DNA of 38,404 bases from Chloroflexota bacterium (GTDB taxonomy: Bacteria > Chloroflexota > Dehalococcoidia > Lucifugimonadales > Lucifugimonadaceae), in the NCBI GenBank assembly GCA_002718455.1, contig PBER01000007.1, forward strand, positions 62,206 through 100,609, written 5' to 3'. The notes under the pieces are model-generated. The model saw nothing but the letters and a program-made list of their open reading frames with translations. It ran no database searches and was not told where the DNA came from. Both the position numbers and the translations under genes were made by a program. This document shows, piece after piece, positions 14,765 to 35,802 of the stretch; position 1 is the stretch's first letter, and the number at the start of each line of letters is the position of its first letter.

Positions 14765-15062
14765 AATCTTTATATATATTTTATTGTCAATTTTTGTATT
14801 TCTAAATGTTTGTTCTAACACATTAGCATTTGAAGGAAAAATTTATAGTATAGAATCAAATGATTTTTACAATATAGATTACATTGAACTGATAAATGAA
14901 AAACAAATCATACAAAAGTTTAAGATTATTAAGCAGCTTGATGCACATTTTTCACCTTCACATATGAAAGAACATATGCTTAACGCAGATAATGTTATAG
15001 TTGAATACAAAAATATTAATGGTGAAAAAATTCTAGATACATTAGAAATATTAGGGCATTAA
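14757..15062 (+). CDS. Small exported protein of unknown function
   Basis: Not recognised. The first 24 residues form a hydrophobic signal sequence (MNKIFIYILLSIFVFLNVCS...); cleavage is likely near NTLA-FEGK, or it could be lipidated at Cys19. The mature part is about 77 residues of mixed beta character, with two close Met/His-containing stretches (SPSHMKEHML) that could bind metal or heme; that is speculation. It overlaps the TPR lipoprotein gene at its 5' end, and its stop overlaps the convergent stop of the next gene. Confidence 0.65.
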   Translation: MNKIFIYILLSIFVFLNVCSNTLAFEGKIYSIESNDFYNIDYIELINEKQIIQKFKIIKQLDAHFSPSHMKEHMLNADNVIVEYKNINGEKILDTLEILGH

Positions 15063-15880
15063 TTTTTCAATATGTCTTTTTTGATTTCCTCATAGTTCGT
15101 AAATCCTTGGTATCTTTCTACTATAAATCCATTTGAATTTATCAAGAAAGTCCAAGGCTCATCTTCTAGCCCAAAACTCTCAACTGCTTTATTTACTATG
15201 CCCACAGATAAGTTGCCTTCCTTTTTGATCTCTTCAAAATTACTCCAAATTTCAACGTGAATAAAGATTAATCTGTCCGAGAATTCTTCATATAATTTTT
15301 TCATCTCTACAATTTGCGGACCGCAAGTTCCTGTTTGGCATAAACCAGGAGTTGTAAAAAAAATAACTATTGGTTTATCTAAATTTAAAGCATCATCTAG
15401 ACTATATTTGTAAAATATTTTATACGGTGTAGGATCAGTGGTTATAGAATTTATATCTGATAAATTTGTATTTGGTGTTTTTATGTTTGAAATTTTGTCT
15501 CCAATGAATGGAACTTTACTGTCAGTTTTAACTAAAAGTGTAGCTTTATTAGTTAAATTATTGTGTTTGTCTTTAGCATAAATTTCCCAGTATCCTTCAG
15601 AAGGAAAATTAATTTTAGTAATTAAAACATATTTATTGTTTGGCCAATTAACTACATTGAAATTTTCTATTTTATTTCTATTTTCTTTGTCTAATTTTTT
15701 ATATGATAATTCGATATTTTCTTTTAAACTTGTCCCTTCACTATCTATTATTGACAGGGCGATTCTATTCTGACCTATATTGATTTCATTTGTTATAAGA
15801 AATAAAGAGATAAATTTATCATTATTTCCACAAGAAATAGAGATAAATATTATAATTATCAATAATATTATTTTGCTCAT
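15059..15880 (-). CDS. Thioredoxin-like lipoprotein with CX4C motif
   Basis: Predicted lipoprotein: hydrophobic signal ending in FISISC, then an Ig-like beta region (residues about 25-125) and a thioredoxin-fold domain (about 150-270). The redox site reads FFTTPGLCQTGTCGPQ, in which two cysteines are four residues apart instead of the usual CxxC. Downstream come LIFIHVEIW and the strand EPWTFLINSNG, in the position of the cis-Pro loop. It probably handles thiols or metal outside the cytoplasm. Its ATG overlaps the stop of the phosphotriesterase-like gene (TAATG), making it the last gene of that unit. Confidence 0.82.
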   Translation of the reverse strand: MSKIILLIIIIFISISCGNNDKFISLFLITNEINIGQNRIALSIIDSEGTSLKENIELSYKKLDKENRNKIENFNVVNWPNNKYVLITKINFPSEGYWEIYAKDKHNNLTNKATLLVKTDSKVPFIGDKISNIKTPNTNLSDINSITTDPTPYKIFYKYSLDDALNLDKPIVIFFTTPGLCQTGTCGPQIVEMKKLYEEFSDRLIFIHVEIWSNFEEIKKEGNLSVGIVNKAVESFGLEDEPWTFLINSNGFIVERYQGFTNYEEIKKDILKN

Positions 15881-16935
15881 TACTTTATGGTTAACATTTT
15901 GGTGGGATTAGTATCTACCATTTTGGTTATATTTTCTTTATCAATTTTTCTAGCTATCATCCAAGGGATTATATGGTTAATAATGTGATCAAATCCGTGG
16001 CCACCAAATTTTTTGAGTCTATGTTTGGTACAGATATCATGTGCTAGTAGTATTTTATCTTCAAATCCTTTATCTATTAAAAATTCGATCATATTTATCC
16101 TCTCATGATCGCCTGGCATATATGTTTCAGGTGCAAGTGGATAGAAAGGGCTATCATGTCCCCATAGATCTAAATTAAGATAGACACCAGTATCTGCAGT
16201 TTCTTTTAGTATAGTATTGTCAAAAATTGTTCTATCAATATGTCCCATTACTACATTATCTAAGTCAGCTCCTAATTCATCTATATATTTTATTATTTCC
16301 AAAGGGGCAATTTGATTCCTTCCGGGATGAATCAATAATGGTAATCCTGTTTCCTTATGAGCTAAAACAGAAGCTTCCATTGAAAGTTTTTCATTTTTGG
16401 TCCATGGCCAAGAACAGCCTACTTCACCTATGATTCCAGATTTAACTGTTGAATTATCTACACCAATTTTTATATCGTTAATAATATTTTCATACAATCC
16501 TTCTATACCATCTTTTGTATATCCCTTATTTTGTGCTAATTCAACGTAATACCCTGTACCCATAACTATATTTAAACCTGTTTTTTTACTTATGCTTTGT
16601 AATTTTATTGGATTTCTGCCGAGTCCTATATTTGTAACATCAACAATAGTTTTTCCTCCAGCATTTTTAAAGTAATTTAACTCATTGATAGCTAAGTTTT
16701 CATCATCATAAACCAAATTATCTTTTGAAGATGCCCAATTGAATCTTATCCATCCCATATTTTCTAATGAAAGCTTTTTATTCATCATGGATTTTTCTTT
16801 AGGATTAATAGGTTCTGTTAGTATAGCTTCAAAATTTATCAATATATGGTCATGTGTAGAAGTAATACCGATTTCTAGAGGATCAATTGTGCCCAAAACA
16901 GTCATTACTTTTCCAAAATTTTCATTATTTGACAT
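15880..16935 (-). CDS. Phosphotriesterase-family metal-dependent hydrolase (Glu-bridged type)
   Basis: Amidohydrolase-superfamily TIM barrel of the phosphotriesterase/PHP group, whose natural members are mostly lactonases or esterases. Seen: HDH (His28, His30) after the typical VLGTIDPLEIG, the bridging position GIIGEVGCSW with Glu where true phosphotriesterases have carboxylated Lys, LLIHPGR, DNVVMGHIDR, and LLAHDICTK supplying the last Asp. The length of 351 aa is normal. It lies in an operon with an enolase-superfamily enzyme and a hydroxyacid dehydrogenase, which suits hydrolysis of a sugar or hydroxyacid lactone. The substrate is not determinable. Confidence 0.88.
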   Translation of the reverse strand: MSNNENFGKVMTVLGTIDPLEIGITSTHDHILINFEAILTEPINPKEKSMMNKKLSLENMGWIRFNWASSKDNLVYDDENLAINELNYFKNAGGKTIVDVTNIGLGRNPIKLQSISKKTGLNIVMGTGYYVELAQNKGYTKDGIEGLYENIINDIKIGVDNSTVKSGIIGEVGCSWPWTKNEKLSMEASVLAHKETGLPLLIHPGRNQIAPLEIIKYIDELGADLDNVVMGHIDRTIFDNTILKETADTGVYLNLDLWGHDSPFYPLAPETYMPGDHERINMIEFLIDKGFEDKILLAHDICTKHRLKKFGGHGFDHIINHIIPWMIARKIDKENITKMVDTNPTKMLTIK

Positions 16936-16936
16936 G

Positions 16937-17635
16937 TTAAAATTCAGGCTCCATACTCACATCTAATATTCCAATAGGCTTTCTATCGTCACAGTACCAT
17001 AAAGTATTGTCTTTGATGGTCATTCCATGTACTTGTACAGGATGAGGAACTCTGAAACTATCATAAACCCTAGAATCAGAAAGTCTTATTCTAGTTACAA
17101 TTCCCATTGCTGTATCTGCTACCCAAATGTATCCTTCTTCTTTTGACCAAGCAATTCCATGTACTCTATATCCAGGAACTTTTGTACGACTTATTTCTTT
17201 CCAATTTTCTGGATCCATGACGTGTATATATTGTGAAGGAGGAGATGCGACATAAAGTAAACCTTCTTTCCATTCCAATCCGTGATCTCCTGTATTTTGA
17301 TAATTTTCAGAATCGTGTTCTCTTGTAGCATTCATTCCTTGTCCAGGAGATTCAAATTTCTCTATAGTCTCACCCGATTTTGAATCAATTTTGTAAATCT
17401 TACAATTATATGTAGATGCTATCCAAATATTTCCCTCGTCATCTAATGTTATACCTGAAGATTTAACTGTTTCTGTTTCAAAACTTTTTATAGTCTTACC
17501 ATTTGTCCAATCTAAGAGATAAACATAATTATTTCCTTGATCAATCACCCATAGACCTTCTTCGGATGCCTGTAAACCATTAGGTTTAGGGCCAGGACAA
17601 TTGAAAAGTTGAACCGGATCTGCAATTTTTGTCAT
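16937..17635 (-). CDS. NHL/SMP-30-like beta-propeller protein
   Basis: Repeated strand-turn units with the alternating pattern GLWVIDQGNNYVYLLDWTNG, GNIWIASTYNCKIYKIDS, GLLYVASPPSQYIHVMD, GYIWVADTAMGIVTRI and NTLWYCDD. This is typical of NHL or SMP-30/gluconolactonase-type beta-propellers. No signal peptide, so cytoplasmic. At 232 aa it is short for a six-bladed propeller but adequate for five. A clear GGAG precedes the ATG. Between the dehydratase-like and hydrolase genes, a lactonase role is plausible, but the metal ligands of SMP-30 cannot be assigned with confidence. Confidence 0.75.
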   Translation of the reverse strand: MTKIADPVQLFNCPGPKPNGLQASEEGLWVIDQGNNYVYLLDWTNGKTIKSFETETVKSSGITLDDEGNIWIASTYNCKIYKIDSKSGETIEKFESPGQGMNATREHDSENYQNTGDHGLEWKEGLLYVASPPSQYIHVMDPENWKEISRTKVPGYRVHGIAWSKEEGYIWVADTAMGIVTRIRLSDSRVYDSFRVPHPVQVHGMTIKDNTLWYCDDRKPIGILDVSMEPEF

Positions 17636-17659
17636 ATTATTCTCCTATATTTATTTTCT

Positions 17660-18874
17660 TTATAAAACTATAACTTTTTTCTCTGTATCTTTATTTGATA
17701 GAAATTCATCAGACAGATTAACACCACATCCAAAATCATCACTTGCATAAGCATATCCGTTTTCAATTTTTGGTACTTTACTAACAATTTTTTGATACCA
17801 TGTATTATTAAATGCCCTCACAGTTTCCTGAATTATTGTATTAGGAACATTTAATGAGAGCTGAATCGAGAAAGCTAGAGTTACAGGACCAACACAGTCA
17901 TGAGTTGCTATGGGTATATTATATGATTCAGCCATTGTACTAATCTTTTTAGCTTCAGAAACTCCTCCTACCCAAGATATGTCAAACATACATATTGTTG
18001 CTGCCCTTTTTTCGAACATCTCTCTAAACTGCCACCTACTAGCTAAGGTTTCAGATGCAGTTGTAGGAATGAAAGTTGATTTTTTAAATTGATATAACGT
18101 ATCAAAATTATCCATAGGAATAGGGTCTTCTATCCAGAATGGATTATATGGTTCAACTGATTTTGCGATTCTTATTGCAGATGGTAGATTCCAAAATGAA
18201 TGTAATTCAAGCATAACTTCCATTTTGCTTTTAAGTTTTTCTCGAATTAATCTAAATGGTTCAGATCCTTCTTCTAATTCAACGAGATCAATCATATTTC
18301 CATCATTATTTGGAACGAACTGATCAAAAGGCCAAATTTTCATTGCTGTAAAACCATCCTCTAGTAAGCTTTCAGCTAATGCAATGGGATCATTCATAAA
18401 AGCATACTGATCTTCATAGGGTTGATCTTTCTGGTAGTCTATATCTCCTGGTAGTTTAGAACCAGCGCGGTTAACTCCATAAGAATATCCTGCACAAGTA
18501 TTATAAACTTTTATTTTTTCTCTTGATAATCCTCCTAATAGATCATACAAAGGGACTTTTAGTCTTTTAGCTTTTAGATCCCAGAGAGCCATATCTATTG
18601 CAGATAATCCTCTCATTTCACCAGAATTACCTATTTTTATATGTGCTCCGACTTTAGATAATTTTTCCCAATGCAAATCTATCTTAGAAGGATCTTTGCC
18701 TAAAAGATAATTAGAACCCTCTCCCATAATGAACGCTTCTACCGTAGTTGGATCGTATGAAGTTTCTCCAATACCTTCAAGTCCATCATTTGTTTTGATC
18801 AAAACCCAAATAATTTTTGGATAACTTGGGTTTCGTATAGTTGTTATTTGTTCAATTAATAGATTCCTTGGCAA
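17660..18874 (-). CDS. Enolase-superfamily enzyme (mandelate racemase/dehydratase type)
   Basis: Two-domain enzyme that abstracts the proton alpha to a carboxylate, typically a sugar-acid dehydratase or racemase. Seen: N-terminal capping domain (LIKTNDGLEGIGETSYD; SAIDMALWDLKAK; LYDLLGG), then the barrel with MKIWPFD, metal-ligand strands VMLELHSFW, FWIEDPIP and TASETL, DISWVGGVSEAKKI, and IATHDC with a likely catalytic His-Asp dyad. The first ligand position is Glu in ELH, where many members have Asp. The length of 404 aa is normal. Start codon TTG, 9 nt after the dehydrogenase gene. A paralog is encoded at 29277. Confidence 0.9.
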   Translation of the reverse strand: MPRNLLIEQITTIRNPSYPKIIWVLIKTNDGLEGIGETSYDPTTVEAFIMGEGSNYLLGKDPSKIDLHWEKLSKVGAHIKIGNSGEMRGLSAIDMALWDLKAKRLKVPLYDLLGGLSREKIKVYNTCAGYSYGVNRAGSKLPGDIDYQKDQPYEDQYAFMNDPIALAESLLEDGFTAMKIWPFDQFVPNNDGNMIDLVELEEGSEPFRLIREKLKSKMEVMLELHSFWNLPSAIRIAKSVEPYNPFWIEDPIPMDNFDTLYQFKKSTFIPTTASETLASRWQFREMFEKRAATICMFDISWVGGVSEAKKISTMAESYNIPIATHDCVGPVTLAFSIQLSLNVPNTIIQETVRAFNNTWYQKIVSKVPKIENGYAYASDDFGCGVNLSDEFLSNKDTEKKVIVL

Positions 18875-18883
18875 AATTTTTCC

Positions 18884-19906
18884 CTACAGAACAGGTTTAT
18901 TTGCAGGCATTGCTTTCAGCATTTCCAATTGAGATGTAACAGAAGGATTTTGAAGAGCAGTTGGTCTTTCTCCTCTTAATACTGCTGCAACCTGTTGAGA
19001 AGCTCTTCTTCGTGATAACCAGGCCGAACGAGTAGATTGACCTGCAACGTGTGGAGCAACTATTACATTGGGCATACTGAACAATGGATTGTTAGGATCT
19101 GCTGGCTCTTGTTCAAAGACATCTAAACCAGCTCCACGAAACTTTTTATTGTTTAATGCATCAATCATTTCTTTTTCAACTACTACAGCTCCTCTACAAA
19201 CATTAATGAAATAAGCACTTGATTTCATAAGGTCAAATTGTTCTTTTCCAATCATATGGTGGGTTTCAGGATTAAGAGGTACAATTGTGACTACATAATC
19301 AGACTTTTTAAAAATATCGTTTAAATTCCATACTTGTTCTACTCCATATTCTTTGATTAACCATGGAGGACAATAAGGATCATATACCAAAGTTTTCATT
19401 CTCCACGCTCCCAATTTTCTAGCAATTTGTCTTCCTATATTTCCAAATCCAATAATACCAAGAGTTTGTTCATCTATTGGGTCTATTGGACTAAATTCTG
19501 AGGCGTTCCATTTACCTCCATTCCTTAATTGCAGAGTATATTGAACTGTTTGTCTATTAAGTGCTAAAGCAAAAGTAACAGCTTGATTAGAGACTTCTTC
19601 TGCACACATACCTGCGCCATTTGTTATCATAATTCCATGTTCCGTAGCTGCTGCTGCATCAATATGATTAAACCCATGTGAATATACTGCTAATACCTTA
19701 CATTTTTTAGTGGACTTGATGAATTGTTCACTACCCCAACCTGCTCGATTCATAATTGCATCTGCATCTTTAACAACCTCCATTGCTTCTCCTTCAGAAG
19801 CTGGATTTGCTTTTACGAATTCTATATCTAGATCTGCCATTTCAGCTCTTTCATATTCTAATTTGTCATCTTCAGGCCCTAGAAATACTACCTTATATTT
19901 AGCCAT
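18884..19906 (-). CDS. NAD-dependent D-2-hydroxyacid dehydrogenase
   Basis: Oxidoreductase of the D-isomer-specific 2-hydroxyacid dehydrogenase family, interconverting 2-hydroxy and 2-oxo acids. Seen: Rossmann motif LGIIGFGNIGRQIARKLG, the substrate-binding Arg in NVCRGAVV, catalytic Glu in LDVFEQEPAD, and catalytic His in IVAPHVAGQS. The domain order (catalytic halves around a central NAD domain) and the length of 340 aa are typical. It heads a five-gene minus-strand unit with an enolase-superfamily and a phosphotriesterase-like enzyme. It could reduce or oxidise a keto/hydroxy-acid intermediate there. GGAT lies seven bases before the ATG. Confidence 0.92.
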   Translation of the reverse strand: MAKYKVVFLGPEDDKLEYERAEMADLDIEFVKANPASEGEAMEVVKDADAIMNRAGWGSEQFIKSTKKCKVLAVYSHGFNHIDAAAATEHGIMITNGAGMCAEEVSNQAVTFALALNRQTVQYTLQLRNGGKWNASEFSPIDPIDEQTLGIIGFGNIGRQIARKLGAWRMKTLVYDPYCPPWLIKEYGVEQVWNLNDIFKKSDYVVTIVPLNPETHHMIGKEQFDLMKSSAYFINVCRGAVVVEKEMIDALNNKKFRGAGLDVFEQEPADPNNPLFSMPNVIVAPHVAGQSTRSAWLSRRRASQQVAAVLRGERPTALQNPSVTSQLEMLKAMPANKPVL

Positions 19907-20064
19907 TTATAATCCTTTCGTATTCATGTTCTGTTTTCATATAATTTATTCTAATTGCATATATCGTATAAAATTATTTTTAAAAATATATTCCATTTAG
20001 TTATAAAAAATAACATTTTCTACTTGTTTTTATATAAATTAAAATAAAAAGAAAAAAAATACCT
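19907..20064. promoter_or_regulatory. Divergent intergenic region (hydroxyacid dehydrogenase / M42 peptidase)
   Basis: A 158-nt A/T-rich gap between two divergent catabolic units, the most likely place for promoters and any operator controlling both. TATA-rich tracts occur throughout (for example ATATAA and TATAAA), so single boxes cannot be chosen. No strong inverted repeat was noticed. Confidence 0.3.
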
Positions 20065-21183
20065 ATGTCAAATCAACTATTAGATACTTTTAGGGAACTA
20101 TCGAACCTCCCTACAACTTCGTTTTATGAACAAAAAATTTTGGAATACATAAAAACTAAACTTGATTCCTATAAAATAGAATTTCACCAAGATTCCTGGG
20201 GAAATATTTTTGCTGAAGTTAATGGTAAAACTCCAAATGAAATAGTATTTATATCTCATACGGATCATCCGGGATTTGAAATCATATCTAAACATAAAAA
20301 GAACATTTATTTAGCAAAAGCTCTAGGAGGGTTACCAAAAAATTGTGTAACCAATCAAACGAATGTAAAAATAATTTCAAATAAATCTGATTTATATAAA
20401 GGAAAAATTATAAATTTTTATTCTAAAGAAAATAAAAAACCAAAAATCCCAAAGAATTATAGATGGATGACTTCAGAGTTTGTTTTAATTGAATCTGAAT
20501 CTGAAAATATTAAATTACCAAGTTTTGCCGTATTTGATTTACCAGAAACTAAATATTTTGGAGAAAGAATTGTAACTCCTGTGGCCGACGATTTGGCTGG
20601 ATGTGCTCTAATTATTGAAACATTGAATAAATTAAATAAAAGTTCTAATGAATATTCTTTTAAGGCTATTTTCTCTAGAGCTGAAGAAGTAGGACTTATA
20701 GGGGCAAGATTAATTGCAGCTAATGAATTGATCAGCAAAAATTCTATAATTATTTCTATTGAAACTAGTAGTGAATTACCTGGAGCAAATTTCGGTAAAG
20801 GTCCAATAATAAGGACTGGAGATCGGCTAACAACTTTTGACAATAAAGCTGAACTTGTACTATTACAATCTGTGAAAGAAATATTACGAAGAGATGTAAA
20901 TTTTGCTTATCAAAGACAACTCATGAGTGAAGGTGGATGTGAAGCATCCGCTTTTGCAGTTTTTGGATATTCAGTTACAGGATTAGCATTACCTTTGCGT
21001 AACTGGCATAATGGTAATGAACAAGGTGATGTTGAACCTGAAGAGATAAGTTTGTTAGATTATGAGAATGCATATAAAATTATGACAAACTTAGGAAAAT
21101 TAGATATTGTAAAAATAAAAGATTATTTTAAAAATCTTATGATGATTCCTGAAGATGCCAAAAAATTAATTAATGAGGAGTAA
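20065..21183 (+). CDS. M42-type metallopeptidase / aminopeptidase-like protein
   Basis: Dinuclear-zinc exopeptidase fold of the M42/M20/M28 clan. Seen: SHTDHPGF (His65, Asp67), VADDLAG (Asp175/176), the general-base and ligand pair AEEVGL (Glu207, Glu208), IISIETSS in the place of the fourth ligand strand, and NWHNG (His315) near the C-terminus. The apical-domain insertion after residue 85 fits M42. Families of this type include aminopeptidases and deacylases, so the substrate is open. It is followed after 2 nt by a ThDP-dependent enzyme whose ribosome-binding site GAGGAG lies in this gene's end. Confidence 0.85.
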   Translation: MSNQLLDTFRELSNLPTTSFYEQKILEYIKTKLDSYKIEFHQDSWGNIFAEVNGKTPNEIVFISHTDHPGFEIISKHKKNIYLAKALGGLPKNCVTNQTNVKIISNKSDLYKGKIINFYSKENKKPKIPKNYRWMTSEFVLIESESENIKLPSFAVFDLPETKYFGERIVTPVADDLAGCALIIETLNKLNKSSNEYSFKAIFSRAEEVGLIGARLIAANELISKNSIIISIETSSELPGANFGKGPIIRTGDRLTTFDNKAELVLLQSVKEILRRDVNFAYQRQLMSEGGCEASAFAVFGYSVTGLALPLRNWHNGNEQGDVEPEEISLLDYENAYKIMTNLGKLDIVKIKDYFKNLMMIPEDAKKLINEE

Positions 21184-21185
21184 TT

Positions 21186-22820: not shown

Positions 22821-22821
22821 T

Positions 22822-23619
22822 TTATCTTTCAGTAATGATTCCTCCATTTATATTAATTGACTGGCCTGATATATATTTTGATTTATTTGATGCAAGAAAA
22901 TATATCAAATCTGCCACTTCGAAATCTTCACCTATTCTTTTTAATGGGATTGTATTCTTTAGTTTTTGAAGGTTTTTTTTACTTAATTTATCTAATCGAG
23001 AGGTTCGTATTGGTCCAGGGGCTACACAATTAACTCTTATATTTCTGCTTGCTAACTCCATTGCCAACGCTTGACTAAAACCCTCTAAACCAAAATTAGC
23101 TGCATTATACGCAGCCATATTAGCATTTCCAGATTTTCCAGCGGTTGAAGAAATATTTATGATTGATCCTTCAATTTTGCTATCAACCATGTATCTAGAT
23201 ACTAATTTTGTAATATAAAAAGCACCAAATAATTTTACTTTAATAACCTTCATAAACTCTTTATTGTCTAAATTTATTACTGGAACTCTATCTTCACCTA
23301 TACCCGTTGAAGCATTATTAACAAGAACGTCTATTCTATTAAATTTTTCTATAATGATACTGAATGCTGATTCTACTTCATTTTCGTTGGAAATATCTAA
23401 TTCTATTGGTAACACCTCTATATCAAATTTTTCTAACTTTTTTGCCAAAGAATTTACTCCGGTCCAATTGATATCCTTTTCATATTTTGGGAATGATTTT
23501 TGATCTCTTTTCGTTCCGGTTATAATTATGTCATAATTATTTTTTGCAAATAAAAATGCAGTAGATGCTCCGATTCCCTTTAATCTACTTGCTCCTGTTA
23601 TAAAAGCTACTTTTCTCAT
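22822..23619 (-). CDS. Short-chain dehydrogenase/reductase-like protein with Lys-to-Asn change at the active site
   Basis: Classical SDR fold. Seen: cofactor motif TGASRLKGIG (residues 8-17, the form with a two-residue insert), LVNNAS, the catalytic Ser in NISSTAGKSG, Tyr171, and the C-terminal ISGQSININGG typical of FabG-like SDRs. In the YxxxK active site the Lys is Asn: the sequence reads YNAAN (171-175), confirmed in the codons TAT AAT GCA GCT AAT. That Lys normally positions NAD(P) and lowers the Tyr pKa, so activity may be altered or lost. It stops one base from the convergent ThDP gene. Length normal. Confidence 0.88.
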   Translation of the reverse strand: MRKVAFITGASRLKGIGASTAFLFAKNNYDIIITGTKRDQKSFPKYEKDINWTGVNSLAKKLEKFDIEVLPIELDISNENEVESAFSIIIEKFNRIDVLVNNASTGIGEDRVPVINLDNKEFMKVIKVKLFGAFYITKLVSRYMVDSKIEGSIINISSTAGKSGNANMAAYNAANFGLEGFSQALAMELASRNIRVNCVAPGPIRTSRLDKLSKKNLQKLKNTIPLKRIGEDFEVADLIYFLASNKSKYISGQSININGGIITER

Positions 23620-23669
23620 AATGAAATTTTATAATGATTTCTATATTAATTATTTTACAGGCTTAATAA

Positions 23670-24179
23670 ATGGAAATTAATTTTAATAAACCAGATTTAG
23701 ATTCAGATACAGTTAAATCAATAATTCGTAAATATTCTCGAAAGAATTTTATTCTATTAAAAGACGAACACCTAACGGCTGATGAGTTTCAAGAATTATC
23801 AAATGAAATTGATTTCAACATCACTGAATTGTCATTTACCTCTTCTTCAATTTATTCAGATAGGATGGATTTAGATCTATGTACAAAAATTTTTGAATGT
23901 ATTTGTACCATTTATGATTCAATTGAAACATTCATAAATTTAGATAAAAGATTATATTTTAACATTTCTGAAAGTCGTAGATATGAAAAAGTAAAAACCT
24001 CAATTCTTCCGTATATAGAACAAATAGGAAAACTTATATGTATGTTTCCTATTACTGATTTGGCAAATATACCTTTTATGGACACTAAAATTCTTCTAGA
24101 AATACAAAAAAAGTTTAATGAACTTAATCATGGTGATATAAGATCGATAATATCTTTATGGGAATCCGATGAAATATAA
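23670..24179 (+). CDS. Protein of unknown function (169 aa)
   Basis: Not recognised. A soluble, acidic protein without signal peptide or membrane segment. The N-terminal third is mixed alpha/beta (KNFILLKDEHLTADEFQELSNEIDF); the rest is mainly helical and contains a Cys pair (FECICTIYDS) and LICMFPITDLANIPF. Coding character is supported by a full-length ATG ORF, normal codon use and the absence of any competing frame. It stands alone between divergent and same-strand neighbours. Confidence 0.65.
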   Translation: MEINFNKPDLDSDTVKSIIRKYSRKNFILLKDEHLTADEFQELSNEIDFNITELSFTSSSIYSDRMDLDLCTKIFECICTIYDSIETFINLDKRLYFNISESRRYEKVKTSILPYIEQIGKLICMFPITDLANIPFMDTKILLEIQKKFNELNHGDIRSIISLWESDEI

Positions 24180-24249
24180 TATTTTCTAAGTAATAGATAT
24201 TTTTAAATTTCATTTATAATTTAATTTGTAAATTACAAAACAACAAAGT

Positions 24250-24735: not shown

Positions 24736-24737
24736 AT

Positions 24738-25859
24738 TTATAAAATTTCATTAAGTTTTTCGGCGATTATATCTATTTCAAATTCATTTAAACTATGAAC
24801 AACAATATTGATTTCTTCATCATAATTATGTTTCCCTACAAAAATTTTTGGTTCTCCATTTTCTAAGAATTGCCTAATTTCTTTTGTAGTTGGCCCTTCA
24901 TAATTCTCCTTTTGAAAAGACAAAATAGTATTTGAGCCTTGCCTATTTGGATAATCATTTTCAATATTTATTACCATTCCTTTTTTAGGGTGAATTTGTT
25001 TTTTAAGAGATTTTGCTTTTCCCAACCAAAGTTTATTTTCCGTGCTCTCGTCTTCTTCAATGAAAAGCTTGATTGCTGTTATCAATCCTATGACATTTTC
25101 TTTAGAAACTTTCATGGGTCGTCCAATCCCTGACCATTCAGGTTTAAGATTTTGAAAGCTATTAATAAATGCTGCATCTATAATCTCTCTAGTTCCAGCC
25201 AAAATTCCCGTTGATTGAGGACCTCCGATACCCTTTCCGCCACTGAAGGCCACTCCATCTGCTCCCAATTCTATGAACTTAGAAAGATTTTCTCTAGGAG
25301 GAAGCTCTGCAGCTGCATCGACTAAGAAATACAACCCTTTTTCATGTGCTATTTCAATAGTTTTTTTCATTCCTAAACCTTTGTCAAAAAATGGAGCAAC
25401 AACATATGCAATAGCACAAGTTTTATCGGTTATTTTGTCAAATAGATTCTCATTTGTGTATTCTACTAACTTAGATCCTGGAATTTCAAAAGCACTATCA
25501 TATCTATTTCTTTGACCTTTATGTATAAGAATTTCATTTCTTTTATGTTCTTTATTGGGCAATTTTTTTGCTTCTTCAATATCGGTACCTGTTAGGCAAG
25601 CAGCAGACATCAGAACAATAGCAGATGCACAACCATTTGTGACCATTGCTCCATCAGATTTACATATTTTAGCAATAAATTTTCCTGCTTCTTCATTTAA
25701 TTTTTCAAGTTCTACAAATACCGTACTTGCTTCTTCAATGGATTTAATTACTTCAGGTTTCATAATGCTTCCACCTAAAGATGTAACCCAGCTTTGTGCA
25801 TTTATAATTGGTTTTATACCCAAATCTTTATAAACGTTTGGCCAATTTCTATATTTCAT
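24738..25859 (-). CDS. SelA/DgaE-like PLP-dependent enzyme
   Basis: Fold-type I PLP protein related to SelA and to D-glucosaminate-6-phosphate ammonia-lyase (DgaE). Seen: PIINAQSWVTSLGGSIMKPEV near the N-terminus, DGAMVTNGCASAI, the cofactor Asp in YFLVDAAAELPP, and the PLP lysine in FSGGKGIGGPQSTGIL near residue 208. It lacks the N-terminal domain of true SelA (373 aa against about 460), so it is unlikely to be the missing selenocysteine synthase despite selB in this window. Better guess: a lyase or aminotransferase acting on an amino sugar or amino acid. AAGGAA precedes the ATG. Confidence 0.82.
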   Translation of the reverse strand: MKYRNWPNVYKDLGIKPIINAQSWVTSLGGSIMKPEVIKSIEEASTVFVELEKLNEEAGKFIAKICKSDGAMVTNGCASAIVLMSAACLTGTDIEEAKKLPNKEHKRNEILIHKGQRNRYDSAFEIPGSKLVEYTNENLFDKITDKTCAIAYVVAPFFDKGLGMKKTIEIAHEKGLYFLVDAAAELPPRENLSKFIELGADGVAFSGGKGIGGPQSTGILAGTREIIDAAFINSFQNLKPEWSGIGRPMKVSKENVIGLITAIKLFIEEDESTENKLWLGKAKSLKKQIHPKKGMVINIENDYPNRQGSNTILSFQKENYEGPTTKEIRQFLENGEPKIFVGKHNYDEEINIVVHSLNEFEIDIIAEKLNEIL

Positions 25860-25913
25860 AACAAATTCCTTATTAAAATAATATTAAATAATTAAAACAT
25901 TAATTTTTCAAAT

Positions 25914-26318: not shown

Positions 26319-26322
26319 ATTT

Positions 26323-26838: not shown

Positions 26839-26853
26839 TTGTTCCTCCTGGAG

Positions 26854-27651
26854 TTAATACGAATCTTCAACATGATTATTTGATTTTTTAATTTTTTTAG
26901 TCCACAAGTTTTCAAGTGAATATTTTGGTCTCCATCCTAAAATATCGAAAGTTTTAGAGCTATTAAATTTATTGTGGGGAGGCATAGGACTTACAAAAAA
27001 AGTTTCGGAATTTGACTGTAATTTTGATTTGTCTATTTCAACTGCACATCTTACAGCCTCTCCACAGTCAATCCAAGACGTAGTAAAAGGAACCATATCA
27101 TTGTGTAAAACTGCTTTTTCTTCATTTGGAGTGGTAAGATCGTAGTGATGTCTCATATTGTAATAGAGAAGAGTTATGAGGTTTATTCCAAAATAATCTG
27201 CATATCTTTCTGCTATTTCTTGACCCAAAAACTTACTTATTGCATAAAGCCTAGTCCCTGGTTGAGGTGGCATTTCTGGATTTAAATTAAAATCCCATTC
27301 CTCATATGATTGTCCTAACATTTGGAAGTGCGGGCCGGTATTTATAACCCTTTTAATATTATGAATTTTTGCAGCATTCATCATGCTGTAATTTCCTTTT
27401 GTAGAAACATCAAATGCGAGTTTTCTATCATGTCTTAATACAGAAAGATTGATTATACAATCCATGCCTTCAGCAGCATTTATCACACCATTTATATCGT
27501 CAACGCTTAATTTTAAGAAGTCACCTTGATATTTTTTCGGAGGCTCATTAATATCTGTTAGTAATAATTGATGTTTGTTTTTCAATGCTTTAACAACCCA
27601 TGGCCCCAGCATTCCAGTTCCTCCCAATATAAGAATTTTCATTTTACTCAA
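26854..27651 (-). CDS. NAD-dependent epimerase/dehydratase (extended SDR)
   Basis: Extended SDR of the sugar-nucleotide epimerase type. Seen: GGTGMLGPWV cofactor motif near residue 10, DCIINLSVLRHDRK, the active-site Tyr and Lys in LYAISKFLGQEIAERY, and WIDCGEAVRCAVEI toward the C-terminus. At 265 aa it is shorter than classic epimerases, with a reduced substrate domain. The tracked start is TTG at 27651; ATG at 27642 is preceded by GGAG at a better spacing. It overlaps the end of the upstream degenerate SDR by 4 nt (or adjoins it if the later start is used). Confidence 0.87.
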   Translation of the reverse strand: MSKMKILILGGTGMLGPWVVKALKNKHQLLLTDINEPPKKYQGDFLKLSVDDINGVINAAEGMDCIINLSVLRHDRKLAFDVSTKGNYSMMNAAKIHNIKRVINTGPHFQMLGQSYEEWDFNLNPEMPPQPGTRLYAISKFLGQEIAERYADYFGINLITLLYYNMRHHYDLTTPNEEKAVLHNDMVPFTTSWIDCGEAVRCAVEIDKSKLQSNSETFFVSPMPPHNKFNSSKTFDILGWRPKYSLENLWTKKIKKSNNHVEDSY

Positions 27652-28334
27652 ACTCCTATCAAATTATCAATTTTATTAGTTAAAAATTTTTGACCTTCAA
27701 ATGTATCTTGTAAGTGCAAATTAATCCAGTTAGGGCCTTTCTTTCTCGCAGAATTAAAAGGATTTTTTGTCTGTTTTAACTCTTCTGAACTAAAATCTAA
27801 ATCTACCATTAAATTAATGCTTTTCTTAAATTTTTCTTCAGATAATCTTGTATCACTATTTTCTCTCAGATCTCCTAGCCTTAGATTTATTACTTCAAAT
27901 ACTTGATCTCTAGCGAATTCTTTACATACTTTTTCTGATAAATTTGCACATAAAAGTTCTGGTTGATCCAAAGGAAATTTAGTTTCCCAGTTTTCACTAA
28001 CAGTAAGATTGGCTTCATAATCTTTGTACAATTCCAAAGTAGAAATAGATATAACTTTTTCTACATTTTTTTTCCCTGCAGCAAAAAGCAAATCGTACGT
28101 TATTCTAGTGTGATAATCAATAAGCTCCATTTCATCTTTTGCTAAAAACCCTTTAAACCCTATATGAACATAAACATCTATTTTTTCAAAAAGTTTTTCC
28201 AGTTCCTTTGAATTTGAATAAATTAAATCTTTGTCATTAATAAAGTTTATATTGTGTGAAACTAGACAATTCGAAAGTATTTTGGCAATTGATGAACCAT
28301 TTGAAGAAATTAGTATATTTTTTTTCTTTTCCAT
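27648..28334 (-). CDS. Degenerate extended-SDR paralog, probably without catalytic activity
   Basis: A 228-aa protein with the general layout of an NAD-dependent epimerase: beta-strand start ILISSNGSSIAK, DVYVHIGFKGF, KVISISTLELYKD, and a helix CANLSEKVCKEFARD where the YxxxK site is expected. The Gly-rich cofactor loop is replaced by SSNGSS, and the catalytic Tyr is missing (CANLSEK). It is therefore likely an inactive or repurposed homolog. It lies immediately upstream of the intact epimerase and overlaps it, suggesting a partner or regulatory role, such as a heterodimer; that is inference. Confidence 0.7.
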   Translation of the reverse strand: MEKKKNILISSNGSSIAKILSNCLVSHNINFINDKDLIYSNSKELEKLFEKIDVYVHIGFKGFLAKDEMELIDYHTRITYDLLFAAGKKNVEKVISISTLELYKDYEANLTVSENWETKFPLDQPELLCANLSEKVCKEFARDQVFEVINLRLGDLRENSDTRLSEEKFKKSINLMVDLDFSSEELKQTKNPFNSARKKGPNWINLHLQDTFEGQKFLTNKIDNLIGV

Positions 28335-28408
28335 TATGAATTTTTCTTATTTAGTTGTTTAATAGTAACTGTAACAACAAATCTTTCAAATATTCAAAGG
28401 AAAGTTTA
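28335..28408. promoter_or_regulatory. Short divergent gap before the RraA-like gene
   Basis: A 74-nt A/T-rich gap between divergent genes. AAAGGAAAG just before the ATG at 28409 is a good ribosome-binding site and decides the start of the RraA-like gene; the ORF track begins 54 nt too early. Promoters for both units should lie here or in the 5' end of the opposite gene. Confidence 0.3.
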
Positions 28409-29164
28409 ATGAATAAAAGTGAATTTGAAAAAATTAAAAATATAGAAAGACCACAAAAAGAATTGATTGAAAAATTAAAAAAAGTAGGAACAGCCACTGC
28501 TTCAGGTGAACTAAATAAATTGGGAATAAAAGATTGTTTCATACAAGGCCCAGTATCATGGACTCCTGGTAAAGTAATAGCAGGTCCAGCAATAACCTTG
28601 CAATTTTTGCCTATTAGAGAAGATGTGTTTCAAGATAATCAAGAGATGGATCCTGAACTTCAATACCATAGACATGCGTTGTACTTAGCCAAAGAAGGAG
28701 ATGTAGTGGTAGTAGACGCAAGAGGAAATTTACGAAGTGGAGTTTTTGGAGAAATGATGCTTACTTATTTTCAAGGAAAAGGAGGTGCAGGTATAGTGGT
28801 TGATGGAGCTATTAGAGATTTTACTAATGCTAGAGATCTAGATTTAGGGATGTGGCTTCGTGGTGTTACTCCTAATTATCATACACAGACTTCAATATTC
28901 CCTAATGCTGTAAATATCCCAATTGCTTGTGGAGGGGTACTTGTAAACCCTGGAGATATTATTATTGCGGATGATGATGGTGCGGTAGTTGTTCCAAAGA
29001 CCTTGGCCGAGCAATTAGCAGAAAATGCTTCAGGTCATGCAGAATGGGAGATCTTCGCTCGAAAGAAATTATCAGAAGGAGGAGAATTGAAAGATTTTTA
29101 TCCTAGAATAGCTTGGTCAAATGAAACTGAAAAAGAGTATGAAACATGGATAAATAACAAATGA
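28409..29164 (+). CDS. RraA-family aldolase-like protein
   Basis: Member of the RraA/HMG-CHA aldolase family, in which many members are class II pyruvate aldolases or oxaloacetate decarboxylases and RraA itself inhibits RNase E. Seen: GTATASGELNKLGIKDCFIQG, PGKVIAGPAITLQ, DVVVVDARGNLRSGVFGEMM, AGIVVDGAIRDF with the substrate Arg and metal Asp, and DDDGAVVVP. The catalytic residues of the aldolase branch are present, so enzymatic function is favoured over RNase inhibition. Start taken at ATG 28409 (251 aa), supported by AAAGGAAAG. It heads a catabolic unit that includes a dehydratase. Confidence 0.87.
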   Translation: MNKSEFEKIKNIERPQKELIEKLKKVGTATASGELNKLGIKDCFIQGPVSWTPGKVIAGPAITLQFLPIREDVFQDNQEMDPELQYHRHALYLAKEGDVVVVDARGNLRSGVFGEMMLTYFQGKGGAGIVVDGAIRDFTNARDLDLGMWLRGVTPNYHTQTSIFPNAVNIPIACGGVLVNPGDIIIADDDGAVVVPKTLAEQLAENASGHAEWEIFARKKLSEGGELKDFYPRIAWSNETEKEYETWINNK

Positions 29165-29186
29165 TGATTGTTGTCTTTCCTCGGTG

Positions 29187-29192
29187 TATAAT
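29187..29192 (+). promoter_or_regulatory. Candidate -10 box upstream of the enolase-superfamily gene
   Basis: TATAAT occurs 84 nt before the next ATG in a 112-nt gap that is less AT-rich around this site than other gaps. No convincing -35 hexamer lies 16-18 nt upstream. It could give a second transcript starting with the dehydratase gene, or be chance in an AT-rich genome. Confidence 0.25.
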
Positions 29193-29276
29193 CTCCGGAT
29201 CATAACACAATGTTTAATTCTCTGATAACATAAACCAGTAATAAAAATCTAATTAAAAGTATCTTGAAGGTAAAAT

Positions 29277-30425
29277 ATGAAAATCACCAAAATTACTCCA
29301 TATGCTGCAGATTATGAACAAACATCCAAAAGCAAATTGGGTAGAAAATGGGTATTTTTAAAAATGGAAACAGATGAAGGTATTCATGGTTGGGGAGAAG
29401 TAGGTTCTTCTGTAGCAGTAAGTGAAAATTTTATGGCTACTGCTATCAAAGAAGTATCTGAAAATCTTATAGGTGAAAACCCAATGGATACTGATCGGTT
29501 ATGGAATAAAATTTTTCGTCTTTTTTCTTATATGGGGTCTAGAGGATTTACAACTTCATTAACTGCTGGTTTTGATATAGCTTTGTGGGATATAAAAGGG
29601 AAAGTAAGTGGACTACCGATATATGATTTACTTGGAGGAAGATATAGAGATCCAGTAAGGCTTTACTGTAATGCTTGGTTTCCAGATTGTTCGACCCCTG
29701 AAGATTATGCAAAGGCTGCGAAAGCTAATTTAGTTGAAAACGGACACAGTGCATGTAAACTCGATCCATTTCTAGAAATGACACAATTTCATACTATGTA
29801 TCAAGATGGCTTTATATCACAAAAAGGAGAACAATTAGGATACGATATTGTTGCAGCAGTAAGAGAAGTGGTCGGTCCCGCTTTTGAAATTTTGATAGAT
29901 GCTCATGGACATTACAATGTACCTAATGCTATTAGGCTATCTAATAATCTTTTTGAACAATCTAATATAACTTGGTTTGAAGAACCAGTTCCACCAGAAG
30001 GAATAAACGCTTTAAAACAAGTAAAGGAAAATACGAATGCTCCAATTTGTGTTGGAGAAAGACTTTATACTAGAGCAGACTTTATTCCAATCCTTGAAAA
30101 TAATCTTGCAGATTATATTATGCCTGATACTATCTGGACGGGTGGAATCTCAGAAATAAAGAAAATTGCTACAATGGCTGAGGCATATTATATTCCTATA
30201 ACACCTCACGTTATTCCGGGTGGACCAATAGAATTGATTTCTGCCGCACATGTAGTAAGTTCTGTCCCGAATTTTTATAGATTGGAACACTCCCATGTTT
30301 TTATTCCTGAACATAATAATTACTTAGAGGAACCATATTTAATCAAAGACGGACATATTCATTTAAATGATAAACCAGGACTTGGATTTGAATTAGATGA
30401 AACTAAACTTGATAAATTAATATAA
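29277..30425 (+). CDS. Enolase-superfamily sugar-acid dehydratase (galactonate dehydratase-like)
   Basis: Mandelate-racemase-subgroup enzyme with the layout of D-galactonate/D-mannonate-type dehydratases. Seen: capping domain (LKMETDEGIHGWGEVG), FDIALWDIKGK, LYDLLGG-type loop, HSACKLDPF, metal ligands in ILIDAHGHYN (Asp and the DgoD-type His), WFEEPVPPE and CVGERLY, then DTIWTGGISEIKKIA and the catalytic His in ITPHVIPGGP. All expected active-site residues are present. Such enzymes dehydrate a sugar acid to a 2-keto-3-deoxy acid, a substrate for the neighbouring aldolase families. 382 aa, normal. Paralog of the protein at 17660. Confidence 0.92.
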   Translation: MKITKITPYAADYEQTSKSKLGRKWVFLKMETDEGIHGWGEVGSSVAVSENFMATAIKEVSENLIGENPMDTDRLWNKIFRLFSYMGSRGFTTSLTAGFDIALWDIKGKVSGLPIYDLLGGRYRDPVRLYCNAWFPDCSTPEDYAKAAKANLVENGHSACKLDPFLEMTQFHTMYQDGFISQKGEQLGYDIVAAVREVVGPAFEILIDAHGHYNVPNAIRLSNNLFEQSNITWFEEPVPPEGINALKQVKENTNAPICVGERLYTRADFIPILENNLADYIMPDTIWTGGISEIKKIATMAEAYYIPITPHVIPGGPIELISAAHVVSSVPNFYRLEHSHVFIPEHNNYLEEPYLIKDGHIHLNDKPGLGFELDETKLDKLI

Positions 30426-30434
30426 AAGTAGGGA

Positions 30435-31115
30435 ATGAGAATGAAAATAATTTTGTCGGGAATAGAATATGTTGGAACAACTACTATTGCAAATTTAATG
30501 AAAGAATGGAAAGTTAAAACTACTGGAACTCCGTTTTATGATAATAATCTACATGATCATATGAAAATTCCACATACATCAGGACATCCGGATGATACAA
30601 CTTCAGAAGAACAACAACAGATTTTAAACTTGTCACCAAAGCTAAAAGAAATGTATCACAGATATCATATGTATTATCATTTGCATCATTATTTTCAAAG
30701 AGATGACTTAACTGTGGGTTTTCACATCGAGGAAGCTGTATTAGCTAGAAGATATTATGGTTATGGCTTAGATGGTGAAACTTTCGATAGAGAAAATGTA
30801 GTTTTCGATAGAATTGAAAACAGGATTAAGCAAATCACATCTGATCCGATTATAACTGTTCATATGAAAGCAGAAACGTCAATTATTGAAAAAAGAATGG
30901 ATTCATTAAAAAGAAACCCTGAACATTCTAATAGCCCCCTAAAAAAAGAAGATATCCCTGCAGTTATGGCTGAATATAAACATTTTGTAGATAAAAGTAA
31001 TATTGGTCCTAAGGTTGAAGTTGATACAACAGTAGATACTCCTGAAGAAACATTAAATAAAGTGGTAGAGTTAATCAAGCCACATCTAAGCGAAGCAGAT
31101 TTAAATAATCATTAA
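30435..31115 (+). CDS. P-loop kinase-like protein lacking the Walker A lysine
   Basis: N-terminus MKIILSGIEYVGTTTIANLM looks like a nucleotide or sugar kinase P-loop, but where GxxxxGK(S/T) is expected it reads GIEYVGTTT (residues 9-17): the essential Lys is Thr15 (codon ACA). The rest is compatible with a P-loop kinase fold: a helical lid rich in His and Tyr (MYHRYHMYYHLHHYFQRD), DRIENRIKQI, IITVHMKAETSIIEKRMDSL (a common kinase LID-like pattern) and a C-terminal helix. The family is unfamiliar to me. Two ATGs (30435, 30441) are possible starts. It is tightly packed between the dehydratase and the PLP-enzyme genes. Confidence 0.75.
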   Translation: MRMKIILSGIEYVGTTTIANLMKEWKVKTTGTPFYDNNLHDHMKIPHTSGHPDDTTSEEQQQILNLSPKLKEMYHRYHMYYHLHHYFQRDDLTVGFHIEEAVLARRYYGYGLDGETFDRENVVFDRIENRIKQITSDPIITVHMKAETSIIEKRMDSLKRNPEHSNSPLKKEDIPAVMAEYKHFVDKSNIGPKVEVDTTVDTPEETLNKVVELIKPHLSEADLNNH

Positions 31116-31133
31116 TATTGAAAGGCTAAAAAA

Positions 31134-32231
31134 ATGTTCACAAATTACAAAATCAATAATATCGAAAACTTTGAAACACCTGAGCACCTGATTTTTGAGT
31201 CAAAAGTCAATCACAACATTTCAACATTAATCTCTATGGTTCAAGATGTTAATAGATTAGTGCCTCATGCAAAGACGCATAAGTCTAAAGAGATGTTGAA
31301 TCATTTAATTGATCGAGGAATTACTAGACATAAAACTTCAACTATAAATGAACTAGAAATTTTAGGAGAATGTGAACCTCAAGAGTTGATTTTATCTTAT
31401 CCAATTGCCTCAAAAATCAAAGCCCAAAGACTTCAAAAGATAATAAATAAATTTTCCAAAACAAATTATTCTTCAATAGTTTCATCCATTTATCACGTTG
31501 AATTACTGAATGATTTAGAAGGAATCCACGGAGTATATATCGATTTAGATACGGGGATGCATAGAACAGGGATTTCTATAAATGAACTAGATGATTTACT
31601 TGATTTTATTATGAGTAAAAGTAATTTAGATTTGCGAGGAATTCATGCTTATGATGGGCATATGCATGCAGTTAATAATGACAAAGAAAGATCAAATCTT
31701 GCGGCGCAAACATTGAGAGATATAAGACAATTACAAGAAAAGATCTATTCAGCTTATAAATTCGAAACCTACGATATTATAGTTGGAGGATCTTGGTCAT
31801 TTCATTTTTATCTTGACCAAAAAGATATTAAACTTTCACCAGGAACGTGGATCTATTGGGATGCAACAAATGCGGAACAAAAAGAATTAAATTTTCAAAT
31901 TGCTGGAGTAGTGTTAGGTCAAGTAGTTGATAATGATGAACTCGAAGGAACTGCAACTATAGATATAGGTGCGAAAGCCATTTCTTGTGATCCTCCCACA
32001 GAAAAAAGACTAAAATTAATAGATAAACCCAATGCAATTCTGGTTCACCAAAATGAAGAGCACGGTGTAATTAAATTGAATGGTGAAACCTTAAATATTG
32101 GTGATTATGTTTTGGCAGAACCAGGGCATGCGTGTACAGTAACTCCAAAATATCCTCATGCAATAAAGATAGATGCAAATGGGGATATATCAGGTAAAAT
32201 AAATTCAGATGCAAGAGACAGAAAAATCTAA
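31134..32231 (+). CDS. PLP-dependent D-serine dehydratase / D-threonine aldolase-like enzyme
   Basis: Fold-type III (alanine racemase-like) PLP protein. Seen: PLP lysine Lys47 in LVPHAKTHKS, VYIDLDTGMHRTGI, GIHAYDGHMH, VGGSWSFHFYL, and a metal site PGHACTV near residue 330. The His-x-Cys pair matches eukaryotic-type D-serine dehydratase, while D-threonine aldolases usually have His-x-Asp. This suggests beta-elimination or aldol cleavage of a D-3-hydroxy amino acid. The barrel and C-terminal beta domain are both complete (365 aa). AAAGG lies upstream of the ATG. Its 3' end overlaps the next gene by 23 nt. Confidence 0.87.
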   Translation: MFTNYKINNIENFETPEHLIFESKVNHNISTLISMVQDVNRLVPHAKTHKSKEMLNHLIDRGITRHKTSTINELEILGECEPQELILSYPIASKIKAQRLQKIINKFSKTNYSSIVSSIYHVELLNDLEGIHGVYIDLDTGMHRTGISINELDDLLDFIMSKSNLDLRGIHAYDGHMHAVNNDKERSNLAAQTLRDIRQLQEKIYSAYKFETYDIIVGGSWSFHFYLDQKDIKLSPGTWIYWDATNAEQKELNFQIAGVVLGQVVDNDELEGTATIDIGAKAISCDPPTEKRLKLIDKPNAILVHQNEEHGVIKLNGETLNIGDYVLAEPGHACTVTPKYPHAIKIDANGDISGKINSDARDRKI

Positions 32232-33159
32232 ATTTATCAATTCAGTATTAGGTCCTATAGATATAAATACTTTAGGATTTACGCTTTCACATGAACATGT
32301 ATTAACAGCATCAGCTGGATTAGGAATTTCTTACCCTAAATTAATTGATAAAAATGATTTAATTTCTCGAGCCACTAAAGAATTTATTAAGCTGAAATCA
32401 TCAGGGATAGATTCAATTATCGATGTGACTACTATGGATCTTGGTAGAGATGTTGAAATATTAAGGGAAGTGTCTATAAATTCTCATGTCAATATAATTT
32501 GTGCTACTGGAACTTGGAGAGATATCCCTCGATCTTTTTGGTATTTACGGCCATCCCAAATCGCAGAATTATATATCGATGAAATAAATAAAGGTATTGA
32601 TCAAACGCAAATAAAAGCAGGAATAATTAAGGTAGCAAATGATTCTGAAGGAATAACTGAAGAAGGTGAAATTATTTTGAAAGCAGCTGCAATAACTTGT
32701 AAGCAAACTGGAGTTCCAATATCAACTCATTCGTATGCTAGAAATAAAGTTGGGCTTGAACAAATACATATTTTCAATTCTGAAAATGTAGATATAAATA
32801 AAGTTTATATAGGTCATAGTAATGATTCAACGGATGTTGATTATTTGGAAGATATTATACAACATGGTGCCTGGCTTGGATTAGATAGATTACCGGGAAG
32901 AAACCCTGATTGGAAGGAGAGAGCAGATGTTACTTTTCAACTAATTAACAGGGGCTTAGAAGATAAAATAATGCTTGGTCATGACTGGAATTATAAATCC
33001 TTAATTTCAAATTTAAGTGAGCAAGAGAGACTGTCCGCAAATCCTGAAGGTTTTTTATTTATAAAAAACCAATTTATACCTCTCTTGCAATCAATGGGAG
33101 TGAGTGAAAAATCAATAAAAAAAATTATGATAGATAACCCTAGGAGTTTTTTTTCCTAA
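32209..33159 (+). CDS. Phosphotriesterase-family metal-dependent hydrolase (Lys-bridged type)
   Basis: Second phosphotriesterase-like TIM barrel in the window. Seen: SVLGPIDINTLGFTLSHEH with His28 and His30, the bridging position AGIIKVAND with Lys (carboxylated in characterised phosphotriesterases and lactonases), STHSYA, VYIGHSND, and IMLGHDWNY with the final Asp. The Lys separates it from the Glu-type paralog at 15880. Length 316 aa, slightly short but complete. It overlaps the PLP-enzyme gene by 23 nt; no later ATG, GTG or TTG gives a sensible start. Probably an esterase or lactonase in the same pathway. Confidence 0.88.
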   Translation: MQETEKSKFINSVLGPIDINTLGFTLSHEHVLTASAGLGISYPKLIDKNDLISRATKEFIKLKSSGIDSIIDVTTMDLGRDVEILREVSINSHVNIICATGTWRDIPRSFWYLRPSQIAELYIDEINKGIDQTQIKAGIIKVANDSEGITEEGEIILKAAAITCKQTGVPISTHSYARNKVGLEQIHIFNSENVDINKVYIGHSNDSTDVDYLEDIIQHGAWLGLDRLPGRNPDWKERADVTFQLINRGLEDKIMLGHDWNYKSLISNLSEQERLSANPEGFLFIKNQFIPLLQSMGVSEKSIKKIMIDNPRSFFS

Positions 33160-35787: not shown

Positions 35788-35802
35788 AATTTTCACCTCA
35801 AT

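Follow-up and report, generated by a model that had tools for sequence, protein, structure and literature searches.

A window of 38,404 nucleotides (contig C7, positions 62206-100609) was analyzed from a small marine SAR202 (Dehalococcoidia) genome of 1.30 Mb that is 83% complete, where two opposed gene units each place an enolase-superfamily gene near a phosphotriesterase (PTE)-family gene. The pairing in the minus-strand unit is a real SAR202 cassette, because orthologs of its enolase (ENO1), short beta-propeller (PROP), and phosphotriesterase-family hydrolase (PTE1) are linked across the family, while the parts separate in some genera. In contrast, the plus-strand unit joins a conserved core of an RraA-like gene and a second enolase (ENO2) to a pyridoxal 5'-phosphate (PLP) enzyme and a second phosphotriesterase-family hydrolase (PTE2), and this latter pair is a recent and poorly conserved addition. 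The reading favored here, with moderate confidence, is that the units are two among several loci by which a streamlined bacterium breaks down sugar acids in parallel, along non-phosphorylative routes, the minus unit being an old cassette and the plus unit a conserved core with an optional PLP/PTE2 pair.

The host genome contains about 30 enolase-superfamily genes (31 MR_MLE_C matches in 1.3 Mb, two of which are small fragments) and only two PTE-family genes, both inside the window. The chance of finding an enolase within four genes was approximately 0.18 for each PTE gene and 0.03 for both, considering density only and assuming about 1300 genes. Since chance alone would give the double pairing in about 3% of cases at this enolase density, the arrangement in a single genome is weak evidence, and conservation must decide. 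Distances between the orthologous genes were tallied across 61 genomes of the family, where genes within 4 kb were considered linked; contig breaks bias these linkage counts low, not high.

Orthologs of ENO1 were found in 48 of 100 relatives. ENO1 and PTE1 were linked in 22 of the 41 genomes having both genes, including those of the genera g1 (5/5), g5 (8/8), g10 (5/6), and g12 (4/6). Linkage between ENO1 and PROP was observed in 24 of 42 genomes, from the genera g1, g6, g8, g10, g11, and g12, and between PROP and PTE1 in 27 of 41 genomes, from eight genera. In several genera, a gene for an NAD-dependent epimerase/dehydrogenase was located between PROP and PTE1, and the window's genus lacked a close copy of it. 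The minus locus looks ancestral, as its neighbors were often unchanged, with PolD, TPR, YchF, HemN, and SelB genes recurring beside it. Outside SAR202, genes of like kinds recombine: in Gemmobacter, genes for an SMP-30 propeller, NAD oxidoreductase, arabinonate dehydratase, and RraA accompany one relative of ENO1; in Paroceanicella, another ENO1 relative occurred with a short-chain dehydrogenase/reductase (SDR) and 2HADH; and in Roseovarius, a relative of PTE1 was found beside 2HADH.

The genes of the minus unit (Table 1) are separated by 9 nt (2HADH-ENO1), 24 nt (ENO1-PROP), and 1 nt (PROP-PTE1). An earlier note on this DNA had named open reading frames and families for both units that proved to be present and intact. 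Its gene list for the minus unit held for four genes and omitted a fifth, the thioredoxin-like lipoprotein gene with which the unit ends. This gene overlaps PTE1 by 1 nt and adjoins PTE1 in congeners too; no match was found for it in a Pfam search, and its product is probably not catabolic. All genes tested were under purifying selection, with a ratio of nonsynonymous to synonymous substitution rates (dN/dS) of 0.04-0.25 relative to the congener G002. For 2HADH, with orthologs that were 86-98% identical in other congeners and present in eight of nine genomes overall, this ratio was 0.04.

Both enolases are members of the mandelate racemase subgroup, with the N- and C-terminal MR_MLE domains of Pfam, three acidic metal ligands, and an Asp-His dyad (E223/E249/E275 and D298-H325 in ENO1; D/E/E and D-H in ENO2). 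The residues identified in ENO1 were Lys179, Glu223-x-His225 (E223-L-H225, metal site 1), Glu249, Glu275, Asp298, and His325, and the catalytic residues were invariant across 12 orthologs. The motif D-A-H occupies metal site 1 of ENO2. The earlier note had distinguished the two enolases by ELH against DAH at this site. The residues were read correctly, but the Glu is not special, recurring in about six of the host's 30 enolases and in the solved relatives 2POD and 4DX3, which are the closest structures to ENO1. Because of this recurrence elsewhere in the genome, Glu or Asp at the metal site was rejected as a marker separating the modules.

Membership of PTE1 and PTE2 in the phosphotriesterase family was indicated by the PF02126 domain, an HxH motif, a bridging residue, two His, and an Asp. 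The bridging residue is Glu171 in PTE1 and Lys141 in PTE2, in agreement with the earlier observation. Residues H28, H30, E171, H203, H232, and D300 of PTE1 were invariant in 19 orthologs, and its closest solved structures are 9EFA and 3K2G. Like PTE1, the E. coli protein PHP has a Glu bridge. Either PTE may act as a lactonase. The two modules had been considered probably parallel and not duplicated, and this was borne out by identities of 26% between the PTEs and 30% between the enolases, each with closer relatives elsewhere; on the same values, the idea that one module arose as a copy of the other was rejected.

PROP is a second candidate hydrolase or lyase of the minus cassette besides PTE1. 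Its AlphaFold model, with a predicted local distance difference test (pLDDT) score of 91, matched the folds of plant-type glutaminyl cyclases first and virginiamycin B lyase next, and the SGL match covered only 57 residues and was barely above the cut-off. A clear assignment as an SMP-30 lactonase was unsupported. In the route proposed for the minus unit, PTE1 would release a free hydroxy-acid by hydrolyzing a lactone or an ester, and ENO1 would dehydrate this acid to a 2-keto-3-deoxy acid via the Asp298-His325 dyad, with His225 as the acid. Downstream, 2HADH may interconvert keto and hydroxy acids, and PROP may hydrolyze the same substrate further or carry out an elimination on it.

Table 1. 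Features of the two units and their conserved neighbors (coordinates in the window).
Feature	Coordinates	Strand	Basis
Thioredoxin-like lipoprotein, 3' end of minus unit	15059..15880	-	read from the sequence: N-terminus lipobox-like, C-terminus thioredoxin-like
PTE1, phosphotriesterase-family metal hydrolase, bridging Glu171, presumed lactonase/esterase	15880..16935	-	Pfam PTE 3.4e-76
PROP, short beta-propeller, 232 aa	16937..17635	-	weak SGL/Vgb matches
ENO1, mandelate-racemase-subgroup enolase, presumed sugar-acid dehydratase	17660..18874	-	Pfam MR_MLE
2HADH, D-isomer-specific 2-hydroxyacid dehydrogenase, first gene of minus unit	18884..19906	-	Pfam 2-Hacid_dh_C 4.5e-57
EPIM1 and EPIM2, NAD-dependent epimerase/dehydratase family, divergent from plus unit	26854..28334	-	Pfam Epimerase
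RraA-like protein, presumed aldolase/decarboxylase	28409..29164 (start about 28409)	+	NCBIfam PRK08245 subfamily, over cut-off
ENO2, mandelate-racemase-subgroup enolase, presumed galactonate-dehydratase-like sugar-acid dehydratase	29277..30425	+	Pfam MR_MLE
KIN, P-loop protein of nucleoside monophosphate (NMP)/deoxynucleoside-kinase fold	30435..31115	+	predicted model, fold match
PLP enzyme, fold type III, D-threonine-aldolase/D-serine-dehydratase group, accessory	31134..32231	+	Pfam Ala_racemase_N, D-ser_dehydrat
PTE2, phosphotriesterase-family hydrolase, bridging Lys141, accessory	32209..33159	+	Pfam PTE 5.4e-69
HpcH/HpaI-type aldolase, convergent neighbor conserved with plus core	35011..35796	-	Pfam HpcH_HpaI
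Amidohydrolase-2, L-fucono-1,5-lactonase-like, candidate lactonase of plus locus	35803..36918	-	Pfam Amidohydro_2

The usual core of the plus locus in the genus is RraA-ENO2, with EPIM1 and EPIM2 divergent on one side and ABC, HpcH, and amidohydrolase genes convergent on the other. RraA-ENO2 was found beside the HpcH and amidohydrolase genes in G000, G001, G002, G004, G007, and G008. In G005, ENO2 was present and RraA was cut off at the edge of the fetched stretch, RraA of G006 was located at a contig edge, and G003 had neither gene at that place. The ENO2 orthologs were 85-97% identical in congeners. In contrast, PTE2 and the PLP gene at this place occurred in only two of the nine congeners (G000 and G002), and other congeners included a PLP relative of 62% identity at a different locus. 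Hence, the paired modules of the earlier note were conserved over several genera in the minus unit but not in the plus unit, whose conserved core stands beside the aldolase and fuconolactonase-like pair. Phylogeny grouped PTE2 with a sequence of G093, a genome of another family (support 94/98), and not with homologs of its own family, which suggests, but does not prove, a horizontal arrival. Among the other PTE2-type loci (n=23), only four had an enolase within five genes, and these enolases were 26-35% identical to ENO2, none being its ortholog.

Spacing within the units is tight except for a gap of 112 nt between RraA and ENO2. The RraA-like protein was assigned to this aldolase group by the PF03737 domain and the G-x-IRD motif (GAIRD in the sequence), and its closest solved structure is 5X15. 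The best NCBIfam match of ENO2 was galactonate dehydratase, at 258 bits versus the 311 needed. EPIM1 and EPIM2 are possible sugar 1-dehydrogenases; the closest NCBIfam entries of the HpcH-type protein were HpaI/GarL/2-keto-3-deoxyrhamnonate aldolases, under cut-off, and the amidohydrolase scored 95 bits for FuconLaconase versus the 400 needed. Genes for a dehydrogenase (EPIM1/2), a lactonase (amidohydrolase), an enolase (ENO2), and an aldolase (HpcH/RraA) occur together in the conserved plus block, at the level of families and not of substrates. The solved structures closest to the PLP enzyme are 3LLX and 7DIB, where its PLP lysine in PHAKTHK aligned to PHAKSHK of 7DIB, and its metal motif is H-x-C as in 3LLX, not H-x-D. 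The probable substrate of the PLP enzyme is a D-3-hydroxyamino acid. PTE2 is closest to parathion hydrolases, and in the alignment its Lys141 coincides with the bridging Lys found in true PTEs. In the route envisaged for the plus locus, EPIM would oxidize a sugar to a lactone, the amidohydrolase resembling a fuconolactonase, or PTE2 in genomes that have it, would open this lactone to the acid, ENO2 would dehydrate the acid to a keto-deoxy acid, and RraA or HpcH would cleave the latter to pyruvate and an aldehyde. The PLP/PTE2 pair, found in the window species and its nearest relative only, may provide an optional entry to this locus.

Several observations weigh against two such catabolic loci. 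No ENO1-PTE1 linkage was found in g9 and g11. The genus g6 retained ENO1-PROP while PTE was absent in all four genomes, and therefore PTE1 is not essential to ENO1. Among the congeners, G003, G005, and G008 (loci L065, L068, and L071) lacked ENO1, so that 2HADH is directly followed by PTE1; PROP was also missing in G005 and G008 and was on a separate contig in G003. These congener genomes are incomplete metagenome-assembled genomes (MAGs). Additionally, the top fold matches of PROP were glutaminyl cyclases and not sugar lactonases, the equivalog cut-offs were missed, and the substrates and activities of all these proteins are inferred.

The absences in g6 and in the three congeners would also fit a minus unit composed of two sub-modules, ENO1-PROP (with the NAD dehydrogenase) and 2HADH-PTE1, in which PTE1 does not act on the substrate of ENO1, and the neighborhoods in Roseovarius (PTE1-2HADH) and Gemmobacter (enolase-SMP-30-oxidoreductase) point in the same direction. 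This alternative is nevertheless unlikely, as ENO1 directly adjoined PTE1 in all eight genomes of g5, where PROP was elsewhere or missing and 2HADH was absent, and as the 2HADH-PTE1 linkage within SAR202 was confined to g1. It was considered quite unlikely that each unit forms a complete pathway of lactone opening and dehydration, with the PTE as the dedicated lactonase of its own enolase. The PTE family does include known lactonases, namely the phosphotriesterase-like lactonases (PLLs) and phospho-furanose lactonases, both units are tightly spaced, and the minus pairing was conserved in four genera; however, the seven congeners lacking PTE2 mostly kept RraA-ENO2, enolases were infrequent at the other PTE2-family loci, and the constant neighbor of ENO2 was the amidohydrolase, itself a lactonase candidate. 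Pairing by chance, suggested by the very high enolase gene density and the resulting expectation for both PTEs, is highly improbable as a general account given the linkage of ENO1, PROP, and PTE1 orthologs far above chance across genera, although it is largely right for PTE2.

The oddest thing seen in the window is the family of KIN, which had been labeled kinase-like, a doubtful label for a P-loop protein without the lysine. Searches of Pfam and NCBIfam returned nothing for KIN, and no PDB sequence matched it credibly. Its model (pLDDT 87) moderately matched deoxynucleoside/thymidylate kinases (8PUU dNK, E 1.5e-4, TM about 0.57-0.60), resembling them in the predicted fold. It differs from them in its P-loop, G-x-E-Y-x-G-T-T-T, which departs from the Walker-A pattern GxxxxGK[ST] and lacks the lysine: Thr takes this position in 75 of the 85 homologs that were fetched, with Ala, Ser, Gly, and Asn as the other replacements, and the lysine is present, as GK[TRH]T, in a minority of the paralogs at order level. 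Two peptide patterns run against bacterial and archaeal genomes, a scan that may miss distant members, identified 72 KIN-family loci, all titled Chloroflexi, Dehalococcoidia, or SAR202 and including Candidatus Lucifugimonas marina. Several order-level genomes had 7-14 matches, some of which were fragments, and the nearest relative (90% identical) was from Dehalococcoidia bacterium PW8.metabat2.98. KIN was present in most congeners and missing in G005 and G008; an apparent premature stop in G003 was rejected, as the frame is open from residue 3 on and the stop precedes it. The RraA-ENO2-KIN arrangement was not found outside the genus, where one locus (L152) had distant RraA and enolase relatives nearby. 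In other families, two KIN homologs were located near PTE2-type genes, one directly upstream at L080 and one two genes away at L081. Tentatively, KIN may belong to an undescribed SAR202-centered family of the NMP/deoxynucleoside-kinase fold that lost the Walker-A lysine in most members, with this member under purifying selection, and instead of being kinases, its proteins might act as phosphotransferases of a non-canonical kind or bind ligands as partners of catabolic enzymes.

The named relatives of the window's genes were SAR202/Dehalococcoidia MAGs. Scans of the window with Rfam and for tRNAs returned no matches, a repeat search revealed nothing notable, and predicted promoters and terminators were no more numerous than in shuffled sequence. 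A SelB-like elongation factor is encoded at 7867-9660 in this window without a tRNA. The YchF-like gene at 11565-12635 was about 30% identical to the congener gene at the same place, where neighbors were about 45-60% identical, and Pfam matched its C-terminal domain only; a replacement or fast divergence is possible. An SDR gene and a small open reading frame at 22822-24179 were shared with G002 and absent at that place in other congeners. Near the plus unit, a SelA/DgaE-like PLP enzyme (24738-25859), under the NCBIfam cut-off, was kept in congeners. A helix-turn-helix regulator adjoined EPIM1 in other congeners (L066:10923-11705) and was missing from the window and G002. The 62% identical PLP enzyme of other congeners was divergent from a different enolase operon (L208-L210, L224).

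An expansion of enolases in SAR202 has been described (PMC6946804, PMC10444878), and no bacteria are known to carry a larger share of enolase paralogs than those of group I (PMC10444878). Parallel non-phosphorylative sugar-acid pathways that dehydrogenate, open a lactone, dehydrate, and cleave with the same COG sets were proposed for SAR202 by Lim et al. 2023 (PMC10444878), and the statement of the earlier note that no described pathway has the second gene set was hence too strong, at least for the generic pathway. The only reported growth on the predicted substrate is that of JH545, a strain of SAR202 in culture (PMC10444878). The L-fucose and L-rhamnose pathways of that study, from SAR202 group I, belong to the same clade and include the COG4948 enolase, NAD dehydrogenases, a COG3618-type lactonase, and a COG3836-type aldolase, and like enzymes are gathered around the plus core. 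In contrast, the minus cassette employs a PTE-family hydrolase and a propeller, and the words phosphotriesterase and lactonase are absent from the main text of the paper. Among the papers available for searching, none was relevant to gene clusters that combine PTE with enolase or to PTE in SAR202.

Both enolases resemble the D-galactonate, mannonate, and arabinonate dehydratases in the metal ligands, the Asp-His dyad, and the acid His, whereas they fell under every equivalog cut-off. For ENO1, which carries a Glu at metal site 1, the nearest solved relatives are 2POD/4DX3/3DIP, entries that name no specific function. Similarly, the two PTEs have the full metal-ligand set of their family, with PTE1 being PHP/9EFA-like and PTE2 OPH/parathion-hydrolase-like with Lys, while both fell under the equivalog cut-offs.

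The conserved PTE/propeller cassette is an addition to the known picture of SAR202 and not a new kind of system. Its linkage over several genera separates meaningful pairings from chance ones in such enolase-rich genomes. Almost no enolase paralog of SAR202 group I has an assigned substrate, and ENO1, the propeller, the NAD dehydrogenase, and PTE1 make up a small and well-defined set of proteins for joint assays.

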